From: Methanothermobacter sp. MT-2
Lineage (GTDB): Archaea > Methanobacteriota > Methanobacteria > Methanobacteriales > DSM-23052
Length of the DNA stretch: 64,000 bases
Reading direction: 5' to 3'
NCBI GenBank assembly: GCA_003584625.1
Contig: AP017647.1
Coordinates: 1-64,000 of the forward strand
This document shows positions 13,038 through 18,981 of this stretch, piece after piece. The position numbers were made by a program, and so were the translations under genes. The stretch's first letter is position 1; each line of letters begins with the position of its first letter. The notes below the pieces were generated by a model. That model was not told the DNA's origin. It did no database searches and was given only the letters and a program-made list of their open reading frames with translations.

Positions 13038-13369
13038 TTATATACGACCAGAACCGCCACAAATAGGGCAAATTTCTGTTATCAACGTTCCGTTCTCATC
13101 ATTATATCCTATGTACCCTTTTCCGCCACAAGTAGGACATATTTGCCTTGAGTTGAACTGTTACCCTGGTCTGGGCTAGACGCCCGACTTGAACCGCTCC
13201 CCTGGTCCTGCACTTGAACTGCACTATTCCCTGGTCCGCCGCTATCATTTAATGAAATATTTTTATCTGCGCTTTTATTATCTGTGATGTTGTTTTGACC
13301 ATTCATTTGGAAAAACGCACATCCAACAGCTAAAATTACCAATCCAATGGTCAAATATTCTTTTTTCAT
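13038..13369 (-). pseudogene. Small secreted zinc-ribbon protein interrupted by a frameshift
   Basis: The first frame (13369 to 13109) encodes 86 residues: a signal or lipoprotein-like N-terminus (MKKEYLTIGLVILAVGCAFF) followed by a low-complexity Gly/Ser/Gln/Asn linker. From about 13150 the -1 frame continues to a stop at 13038 and encodes two DnaJ-like cysteine pairs, ICPTCGGKGYIGY and EICPICGGSGRI. A single missing base between about 13135 and 13165 would explain the break, because the second frame has an in-frame TAA just upstream and so cannot extend further back. It may be a real mutation, an assembly error or, less likely, ribosomal frameshifting. Function unknown. Confidence 0.6.
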
Positions 13370-14210: not shown

Positions 14211-14219
14211 TTTATATAG
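14211..14219 (+). promoter_or_regulatory. TATA box of the PMBR-M14 gene
   Basis: TTTATATAG lies about 50 bases upstream of the ATG at 14269, in a good position for an archaeal promoter with a short leader. Identified by eye. Confidence 0.45.
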
Positions 14220-14268
14220 CACCTCTTTTAGATTTTTGATATCATATTTCCAGAGGGGAGATGAAAAA

Positions 14269-15375
14269 ATGAAAAAGTTTTTATTATTCCTCATAATATC
14301 CTTTATCTTTATTAATTGCGCACATGGCGCTAATCTTTCATACAATGAGATATCAGTAGCTTCGAAAGTAATTGAAGATTATACATCATCTAATGGTAAA
14401 ATACCCACAGGAATAATCTTGAATAATAAGAGCATCTCCATGGACACTTACTTATATGGCGCGGCCACCACAACAATAAACTTGAACACTAACAAAAAAA
14501 CGAATATAACCATCAAGGATTATAATCCGCCAACAAACCCCCCGAGTAATACAGCAACTGGAAAACTCACAAAAACAACATACCTACAGGTAGCGCAGAA
14601 CATCAAAAAATACATGGAAACCAATGGAAGATCACCCAGCTATGCCACCACAACAATAGGAAAAATAAACTATCCAAGCCTGATCTACACCTACGCCAAA
14701 ATAATAAACTTCTACAAGACCAACGGAAGACTACCAAACTCTATAACAGTTACTGCAATTTCAAGTTTAGAAAACACAACAAATAACGGTGGTGTGGTTA
14801 TAGGTAGGACAGATTGTGGTGTGGTTGTGCGCGAAGGCCCCTATGGTAATCCTAATTCCTCTGATAAAGTGGCTTTTATAGTGGGTGTGCACCCTCGGGA
14901 GTCACAAGCTCATAATGCTATTGTTGAAGCTATAAAGGCTCAAAACCAGACTCTTAAGAAATGCTACTATATTTACAGGATAAATGTTACGAAGTATGCT
15001 TCTGATTATGAAAAAGGGAGAACTAATGGCGAATTATTAGCCAGCCAATATGCAGTTCCTGACATAAAAAAGATGCTGCCAAACCTTGTGATTGACGTTC
15101 ACTCCAACAAGGGAGGATATTCTGAAAAAAACTTTTTATTCGTCCCCTATAATTCCACAGAAGCCAATGAAATAGCTAATATGATAACAAGTAAAACAAG
15201 TTGGTTAACAATTTACACACCCCCAACATCAACCAGCGCCGAGTATGTTACCATACCTTTAATAAAAGCAGGCATACCTGCAATTATATATGAAACATAT
15301 GCATACGATCCATACACCCAAATACTACAAAGAGCCACAGAAATTCTTTCAATAATAGATAACCTAATCCTTTAA
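14269..15375 (+). CDS. Secreted pseudomurein-binding protein with zinc-carboxypeptidase-like (M14) domain
   Basis: A 368-residue predicted extracellular protein. It has a signal peptide (MKKFLLFLIISFIFINCAHG), then two pseudomurein-binding repeats: LSYNEISVASKVIEDYTSSN at about residues 24-75, and a [22 protein letters not shown]-type repeat at about 100-160. The C-terminal 200 residues resemble M14/AstE-type metallocarboxypeptidases: GVHPRESQ supplies the HxxE zinc motif, VIDVHSNKG a third histidine, and IIYETYAYDP a candidate catalytic glutamate. Known pseudomurein peptidases (PeiW/PeiP) are cysteine enzymes, so this would be a different chemistry. The start at 14269 follows GAGGGGAGATG. 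The second repeat is nearly identical in DNA to copies in the gene at 17218. Confidence 0.75.
   Translation: MKKFLLFLIISFIFINCAHGANLSYNEISVASKVIEDYTSSNGKIPTGIILNNKSISMDTYLYGAATTTINLNTNKKTNITIKDYNPPTNPPSNTATGKLTKTTYLQVAQNIKKYMETNGRSPSYATTTIGKINYPSLIYTYAKIINFYKTNGRLPNSITVTAISSLENTTNNGGVVIGRTDCGVVVREGPYGNPNSSDKVAFIVGVHPRESQAHNAIVEAIKAQNQTLKKCYYIYRINVTKYASDYEKGRTNGELLASQYAVPDIKKMLPNLVIDVHSNKGGYSEKNFLFVPYNSTEANEIANMITSKTSWLTIYTPPTSTSAEYVTIPLIKAGIPAIIYETYAYDPYTQILQRATEILSIIDNLIL
14562..14750 (+). repeat. 189-bp pseudomurein-binding repeat unit, copy 1
   Basis: Coding repeat nearly identical at the DNA level to 17520-17708 and, over its last two thirds, to 17985-18173. The conserved core runs from ACATCAAAAAATACATGG to the CTACCAAA segment. 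The low divergence, including at third codon positions, points to recent duplication or gene conversion. Confidence 0.85.
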
Positions 15376-16919: not shown

Positions 16920-17173
16920 CCTATAGATGATATTGTATATTGATTATTAATATTCTTTTCCTCACACAAAAAAAGGAGATTTAATATGCGAAAATTTTCA
17001 TAATTGTAATCCCAAGTTTATATATTCATGAAATGTCACAGAAGCACCCCCCAAAATTAGATGTAGGAGGATACAATTACCCACAAAAAGAATGATTTGT
17101 CAGAAATTGGAAGTAATTTTATCATTTTTTTCCGATTTTATGCAAGTAATATTCATCCAATTTAAAGGTAAAC

Positions 17174-17182
17174 TTTATATAC
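17174..17182 (+). promoter_or_regulatory. TATA box of the PMBR-TIM barrel gene
   Basis: TTTATATAC sits about 36-44 bases before the ATG at 17218, an ideal spacing for an archaeal promoter with a short leader. Confidence 0.5.
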
Positions 17183-17217
17183 TTGTTTTGTTTTATAAAG
17201 GGCTACATGGTGTTAAC

Positions 17218-18981
17218 ATGAAAAAAGCATTGTATCTGACTGTTTTCATAACAAGCCTTTTAATACTTATCAGCAACGCCTCAGCAGCCCAATTATCATA
17301 CAACGAAATCTCAAACGCCTCAAAAATAATAACAGACCAAGCCTCAAAAACAGGCCAAATACCATCCCAAATCACAGTAAACAACAAAAACATCACCCTA
17401 GACGACTACCTATACGCCGCAAGCACCACCACAATAAACCTAAACACCAACAAAAAAACAAACATAAGCACCAACAACTACAAACCACCAACAAACCCCC
17501 CAAACAACACAGCAACCGGAAAACTCACAAAAACAACATACCTACAGGTAGCACAAAACATCAAAAAATACATGGAAACCAATGGAAGATCACCCAGCTA
17601 TGCCACCACAACAATAGGGAAAATAAGCTATCCAAGCCTGATCTACACCTATGCCAAGATAATAAACTTCTACAACACCAACGGAAGACTACCAAATTCT
17701 GTAACGGTAAAAGGTGTGAAAATTGCAAATGTTCCTGAACCAGACACGTCATTCCAGTTATCCTATAATGAAATATCCCTAGCCTCACAGACAATAACAG
17801 ATCACATAACTCAGAATGGTAAAATACCTCCCCAGATAACAATAAGCAACAAAAATGTTACACTGGATGACTATCTGTATGCCGCGGCTGCCACAGCAGT
17901 AAATTTGAATGCTAGCAAGAAAACAAACATACCCATCAACAATTACAAACCGCCAATGGATCCCTTGACAAGTACAGAAATTGGAACGCTCACAAAAACT
18001 GAATATTTACAGGTGGCAGAGAACATCAAAAAATACATGGAAACCAATGGAAGATCGCCCAGCTATGCCACCACAACAATAGGGAAAATAAGCTATCCAA
18101 GCCTGATCTACACCTATGCCAAGATAATAAACTTCTACAACACCAACGGAAGACTACCAAACTATGTAACAGTAACAAATGTGGATTTGGAGTCTCCAAT
18201 GGCGCATGGTGGAATATGGGTTCACGCTTCCATGATGGATAAAGTTAATTTCACCACTCTCAAAAATAAAGGTATAACAGACATATTTTTAGAACAACAG
18301 GCTTTTACCAGAGCGGAATATAGCACAAAACTTTTAAAGTTTCTCCAAGACGCTTCAAATGCAGGTCTCCGTGTGAATGCATGGGTAATTTGCCTCCAGG
18401 AAAATGGTACGTGGCTTGATCCAGGAAATGAAAGCAACATTGAAAAACTGATAAACAGAGTCCAAAACCTTATGAATTTTCCTGGAGTCAGTGGCATCCA
18501 CCTTGACTATATTCGTTATCCAGGAACCGCTTATAACGTTCCAAATGCAACAAATATAATAACAGGAGTGGTTCAGAGAATATATGAAACCGTGAAAAGT
18601 GTGAATCCAACATTTCTAGTATCAGCAGCGCTAATGCCAGAAATGCAAGGAAATGCTTATTATTATGGTCAGGATTATGGTCAGCTTGCAAGGTACCTTG
18701 ATGTTTTGATACCAATGGCTTACAAGGGTAATTATAATATGACAACGGATTGGATAATGGCAGTGACAAGGTATGTGAAAGATAACTGTGGTGGCAAGGA
18801 AGTGTGGACAGGCTTGCAAACCTATAAATCAGATTCTGATACAAATCCGATTCCTAAGGCAGAGCTTGAATCTGATATAATGGCTGCCTTAAATGGTGGA
18901 GCAACTGGTTACGTGCTTTTCAAGTATGGTCTCATTGACAGCGCATTTTGGGATGGGAACCCATATCGTCTACCAAATTAA
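17218..18981 (+). CDS. Secreted protein with four pseudomurein-binding repeats and a glycoside hydrolase-like TIM barrel
   Basis: A 587-residue predicted extracellular protein. The signal peptide [23 protein letters not shown] is followed by four pseudomurein-binding repeats (two LSYNEIS-type alternating with two LTKTxYLQVA-type) up to about residue 320. The C-terminal 260 residues start at [20 protein letters not shown] and contain [27 protein letters not shown] and [12 protein letters not shown]. These are strand-end motifs of the putative GHL10/DUF4015-type glycoside hydrolases, with the Asp of HLDYIRYP a plausible catalytic residue. The architecture suggests cutting of the pseudomurein glycan or another wall glycan; no activity is shown. 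The start at 17218 has TGGTGTT upstream; the longer frame from 17092 lacks a signal peptide at its start. Confidence 0.78.
17520..17708 (+). repeat. 189-bp pseudomurein-binding repeat unit, copy 2
   Basis: The best match to copy 1 (14562-14750) in the neighbouring gene; the two differ at only a handful of bases, mostly silent. Confidence 0.85.
17985..18173 (+). repeat. 189-bp pseudomurein-binding repeat unit, copy 3
   Basis: The last two thirds are almost identical to copy 2 at 17520-17708. The first 40 bases have diverged ([11 protein letters not shown] instead of [11 protein letters not shown]), which looks like a conversion-tract boundary. Confidence 0.85.

Follow-up and report, generated by a model that had tools for sequence, protein, structure and literature searches.

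Does an archaeon that builds a pseudomurein wall make its own enzyme for the peptides of that wall? The characterised pseudomurein-lytic enzymes are cysteine peptidases of phages or prophages. The question arises from one gene in the stretch of DNA analysed here (the window, 64,000 nucleotides from Methanothermobacter sp. MT-2), an open reading frame at 14269-15375 on the forward strand that runs from ATG to TAA and encodes 368 aa. A first-pass annotation had proposed that its product combines pseudomurein-binding repeats (PMBRs) with a zinc-carboxypeptidase-like domain. This combination was borne out: Pfam recognized PMBRs in three stretches of the protein (E 5e-19), the C-terminal domain was modelled with an M14-type fold, and the key residues of the motifs singled out by the annotation are invariant.

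The protein has the layout of a secreted, wall-bound enzyme. Upstream of the gene, and on its strand, a TATA-box-like TTTATATA (14211-14218) and a purine-rich, ribosome-binding-like AGAGGGGA (about 14252-14259) were picked out by eye as putative signals. The coding sequence begins with a predicted Sec signal peptide (14269-14331, MKKFLLFLIISFIFINCAHGA), likewise recognized by eye from its basic N-terminus and hydrophobic core, which would export the protein. There follow, all on the forward strand, PMBR 1 (aa 23-54, 14335-14430), PMBR 2 (aa 100-131, 14566-14661; best Pfam stretch aa 96-127), and a partial PMBR 3 (aa 140-162, 14686-14754), each found by Pfam and positioned with a local repeat profile, and then the candidate catalytic domain of M14/AstE fold (aa 172-368, 14782-15372), assigned from the AlphaFold2 model and its Foldseek matches. 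Three PMBR motifs are the number needed for binding the pseudomurein of methanogens (PMC3124540), and the three repeats would hold the protein on that polymer. A genome search found the M14-fold domain in a single copy in the window's genome; two more species of the genus have orthologues of the same architecture that are 71-75% identical along the full length, and a decayed copy of the domain, interrupted by six in-frame stops, lies in a sister species (L006, G002:C3:30420-30683).

Two further genes near this one deserve mention. A second PMBR protein (17092-18981, forward strand) is encoded two genes away; it has four strong PMBR stretches and a C-terminus weakly like DUF4015, a putative glycosyl hydrolase (20.6 bits against a cut-off of 27), and is by sequence a candidate glycan-acting partner of the window protein. 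The PMBR block at 14566-14760 is near-identical in protein sequence to both PMBR blocks of this second protein, a resemblance that suggests recent duplication or gene conversion. On the reverse strand, 13109-13369 encodes a small Ser/Gly-rich protein of secreted type, whose homologue in the genome of the decayed copy (L076:7688-8047) closes with a DnaJ-like CxxCxGxG region, seemingly absent from the window's reading frame.

Sequence searches did not place the C-terminal domain in a described family. Peptidase M14 (PF00246) matched neither the window protein nor any of 27 relatives in Pfam searches and was absent from the window's genome at E 1e-8, the AstE/AspA model (PF24827) matched only 1 of the 27 family members (E 0.094, below the cut-off), NCBIfam gave no match for the window protein, and searches of the PDB by sequence or profile returned chance matches only. 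Nor did Pfam detect in the window protein the C71 domain (PF12386) with its C-H-D triad. DUF2119 (PF09892) reached 18.7-20.2 bits (E 0.0004-0.0012), a sub-threshold match against a cut-off of 30.5 that covers the half of the domain from HxxE to DxH. The window's genome has a genuine DUF2119 gene elsewhere, and DUF2119 was rejected as the nearest relative in favor of AstE-like proteins, its profile-profile probability being 1%.

Structure was more informative. AlphaFold2, supplied with an alignment of the window's M14-fold domain and five relatives (alignment A1), returned a model with a mean pLDDT of 92.6 and a pTM of 0.90, and the PDB matches listed by Foldseek for this model were almost all M14 or M14-like hydrolases (E 7.8e-7 to 4e-4). 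They comprised putative metallopeptidases (2qvp, 3b2y), carboxypeptidases (4b6z, 4a37), carboxypeptidases A and B, AstE (1yw4), and the peptidoglycan enzymes MpaA (4axv, 5hxd) and Csd4 (4wcn, 4q6m), with a weaker match to the N-acetylmuramoyl-L-alanine amidase CwlV (1jwq). A viral structure library gave AstE-like proteins, zinc carboxypeptidases, and cell-wall autolysins. Because TM-scores to PDB folds were moderate (about 0.5-0.6 by query length) and rmsd was 4-7 Å for most, the model makes the domain a distant member of the M14 fold. A sugar-binding fold would have spoken against the annotation; the model instead has an M14/AstE-type α/β fold. What the domain shares with M14 is the carboxypeptidase α/β fold, in the model, and the HxxE + H + Glu pattern, in the alignment. 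The label M14-like thus stands for the fold (AlphaFold2, Foldseek) and not for sequence, where Pfam Peptidase_M14 is missing and AstE_AspA marginal, and the family looks, from the model, like an M14-fold metallohydrolase outside Pfam M14.

Does this fold carry a plausible active site? The motifs HPRE, VDVHS, and IYETY named by the annotation are present in the window's reading frame. HPRE (aa 208, 14890-14901) supplies H208 and E211 as candidate zinc ligands, DVHSN (starting at aa 276, nt 15094) supplies H278 as the candidate third ligand (15100-15102), and YETY (aa 341, nt 15289) supplies E342 as the candidate general base (15292-15294), which we take to be the equivalent of CPA Glu270; R251 in GRxNG (15019-15021) is a candidate for the arginine that would bind a substrate carboxylate. 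All lie on the forward strand. All 53 distinct proteins compared, drawn from all loci including the remote Methanopyrus-like ones, share these five residues, which is beyond chance; in domain numbering the five are H37, E40, R80, H107, and E171, invariant in the 27 relatives of alignment A2. In the predicted secondary structure, HxxE opens a helix after a strand, H107 closes a strand, and E171 lies in the last strand, as it does in the model. M14 enzymes place HxxE, His, and Glu on equivalent secondary-structure positions.

Profile comparisons gave a divided result: Pfam models of M14/AstE did not reach the family, while the H, E, H, E positions did align with AstE-like profiles. Against an archaeal AstE-like set, hhalign gave a probability of 84% (E 7.6e-6, from a single local comparison rather than a database search), pairing HPRE with HGNE, the DVH region with DFH, and the YET region with CEV; against canonical AstE-like proteins, the profile-profile probability was 30% (E 5e-4), with the same residues falling on HGDE, DLH, and YEA. 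Another AstE_AspA-like family of about 250 aa (L128-L145 in many Methanobacteriales, HGNE...DFH...CEV) is common in the same genomes. The invariance bears on whether the domain is catalytic at all: a dead zinc- or peptide-binding sensor, or a structural wall protein, would have no need of five catalytic-type residues, general base included, that never vary, and we find such a protein hardly credible.

The annotation had also cast the enzyme as cellular rather than viral, and the distribution of the domain fits that view. A single-sequence search found the domain in 149 of the order's 151 genomes, and a profile search in 150 of the phylum's 152, with 1-7 matches per genome; every one of the 91 good assemblies has it, and the two genomes without it are 67-74% complete. 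Among 396 relatives searched, 244 of them outside the phylum, the only further matches came from a single genus (5 genomes, E 1e-11 to 1e-14), and the remaining 239 archaeal genomes had no domain match at E 0.001. The extra genus is probably Methanopyrus, one of its genomes probably being that of Methanopyrus kandleri AV19. Pseudomurein is restricted to Methanobacteriales and Methanopyrales (PMC12996149), and on that reading the range of the family coincides with that of the polymer. Neither IMG/VR, searched with a single sequence and with a profile, nor the INPHARED phages held a relative of the domain, and a viral origin was rejected on that basis. Because the domain occurs in all examined well-assembled genomes of pseudomurein makers and in none of the 239 other archaea, it is very probable that these cells make it as a wall-peptide enzyme of their own.

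The architectures of the relatives strengthen the link to the wall. The majority have 220-300 aa and carry a single hydrophobic segment near the N-terminus that would leave the domain on the outside. Most relatives would thus be anchored at the outer membrane face, often with a distinct PMBR membrane protein as neighbor: in 12 genomes (7 of g19, together with g8, g10, g12, and g16; the g19 partner matches Pfam PMBR at E 6e-17), a gene for such a protein immediately precedes theirs in the same orientation. Several PMBR partners (L009, L025, L026, L033, L048) start with a CxxC...CxxC zinc-ribbon-like segment followed by a membrane segment, which suggests a cytosolic zinc ribbon joined across the membrane to wall-binding repeats. 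Fusion of PMBRs to the domain in one chain occurs in three species of the window's genus, and in the tree these proteins group together with good support, a membrane-anchored paralogue being their sister. Longer single chains of 760-1010 aa in g7, g8, and g11 (L078:1679-4330, L079:2081-4363, L019, L023) run from PMBRs through the domain and more PMBRs to a Transglut_core domain, which Pfam recognizes in two of them (E 4e-23 and 5e-26) and whose motif the other two also carry; the L079 protein matches the Pei family C71 weakly as well (E 0.04). The transglutaminase-fused proteins form a supported clade separate from the fusions of the window's genus, so the history of PMBR fusion includes more than one gain or loss. 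In a paralogue clade (L072:4327-5256, L083, L080), the domain is followed by Big_5 Ig-like or chitobiase-C-terminal/Fn3-associated domains. Transglutaminases are the proposed cross-linkers of pseudomurein (PMC2812497, PMC11915815). Because the domain often has a PMBR neighbor and in some relatives is fused to a transglutaminase-like domain, it plausibly works with a cross-linking or cross-link-cutting enzyme during wall assembly.

Genomic position adds a connection to wall biosynthesis and to an earlier record of the family. In genome G148, probably that of M. thermautotrophicus Delta-H, one copy of the domain (L071:5020-5718, about 469.0-469.7 kb) has a single gene after it; beyond that gene, the opposite strand encodes a MobA-like nucleotidyltransferase, then an uncharacterised protein and a Mur ligase, roles that were assigned by eye and from PF08245 matches. 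The distance from this copy to the MobA-like gene is about 1.3 kb and to a Mur-ligase gene 3 kb, with Mur-ligase domains at 473560-477049. The window gene itself is far from the Mur-ligase genes of its own genome. A recent pangenomic survey lists an orthogroup, OG0000169 or 'Zn peptidase', as pseudomurein-specific, Sec-secreted, and of unknown function, and places it in M. thermautotrophicus three genes from the MobA-like OG0001146 of cluster B (mSystems 2025, PMC11915815). Because the place of the G148 copy near cluster B and its secreted, pseudomurein-restricted character match this description, the family very probably is, or includes, OG0000169; it is thus already on record as an uncharacterised orthogroup and not unreported. 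The table entry for OG0000169 gives no domain, and a term search of the paper's main text yielded no mention of the fold, catalytic residues, PMBR pairing, or PMBR or transglutaminase fusions. In the other open-licence papers searched we likewise found neither the fold, the invariant site, the PMBR pairing, nor the transglutaminase fusions; a mention in a subscription journal is possible.

Might the wall be only a place of display? M14 enzymes are often digestive, which would suit a general secreted peptidase serving nutrition or protein processing. PMBRs also display other surface proteins, MTH719 among them (PMC3124540). The strict restriction of the domain to pseudomurein makers argues against such a peptidase, as do its syntenic neighbors (a PMBR partner, the Mur-ligase region) and its fusion to Transglut_core, and we hold it to be very improbable.

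We consider it likely that the window protein is a self-made, secreted, zinc-dependent peptidase or amidohydrolase of M14/AstE fold that serves the cell's own pseudomurein wall, probably by trimming stem peptides. The computations give an architecture of secretion type, the fold, catalytic-type residues that do not vary, confinement to pseudomurein makers, and linkage to PMBRs and transglutaminase; zinc, catalysis, pseudomurein stem peptides as the substrate, and the bond cut are what we infer. In the proposed mechanism, the C-terminal domain would bind zinc through H208, E211, and H278, with E342 as general base, R251 would grip the free carboxylate of the substrate, and the enzyme would act where the L-Glu/Ala/Lys stem peptides have their exposed end, removing or cutting residues there either ahead of cross-linking or after it. 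Carboxypeptidase-like trimming is the most likely action. Three points favor the removal of an exposed terminal residue: one arginine, R251, is invariant and would hold a free carboxylate; the wall enzymes nearest in fold are stem trimmers; and cross-linking is proposed to require the loss of such a residue (PMC2812497).

The same evidence leaves some room for cleavage elsewhere in the stem. Alignment A2 shows no evident counterpart of the canonical M14 pair Asn144-Arg145, and R251 is its one invariant arginine; the fold is common to AstE/AspA amidohydrolases, the murein tripeptide amidase MpaA, and, more weakly, CwlV (1jwq); and a transglutaminase-like fusion, one of them weakly C71-like, fits turnover of cross-links. 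All of this could suit a cellular autolysin, a pseudomurein amidase or endo(iso)peptidase that severs the stem from talosaminuronic acid or cleaves an internal gamma-Glu or epsilon-Lys bond. This is a serious rival that we nevertheless regard as rather unlikely, since the invariant arginine has carboxylate-binding-like spacing that points to a terminal carboxylate, and the zinc motif is the HxxE of M14/AstE and not the spaced motif of amidase_3.

If stem trimming is correct, a broader picture may be sketched, which we offer tentatively and would not yet call probable: a universal, self-made metallo-carboxypeptidase of pseudomurein builders that sets the number of cross-linkable stems, is coupled in some genera to a transglutaminase-like cross-linker, and forms a counterpart, of unrelated descent, to the bacterial pair of penicillin-binding carboxypeptidase and transpeptidase. 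A metallo-enzyme present in essentially all pseudomurein makers and absent from the other sampled archaea would be a strong candidate for the enzyme that the cell itself uses in peptide processing. Its domain of about 200 aa is tractable for biochemistry, and it might serve as a tool to open methanogen walls or as a target against rumen methanogens.

Three further known systems invite comparison. AstE and AspA (succinylglutamate desuccinylase and aspartoacylase) share the fold and the H, E, H, E positions with the family, but they are cytosolic whereas the family is secreted and wall-associated. The M14 peptidoglycan enzymes MpaA and Csd4 share the overall fold, the HxxE...H...E pattern, and a role on cell-wall peptides; they differ in sequence (about 10% identity), in the canonical Asn-Arg pair, which was not seen in the family, and in the type of wall, murein stems containing D-amino acids. 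Pseudomurein stems are built of L-amino acids only (PMC12996149). PeiW and PeiP, which act on pseudomurein, resemble the window protein in placing PMBRs N-terminal to a catalytic domain; they are EDTA-sensitive, activity being restored by Ca/Mg (PMC2989375), so a chelator assay alone would not separate the window protein from Pei. The annotation's contrast with these viral endoisopeptidases was nonetheless fair: C71 enzymes are transglutaminase-like cysteine peptidases with a C-H-D triad that come from prophages, whereas the window protein has a metallo-fold and no viral relatives that we could find.
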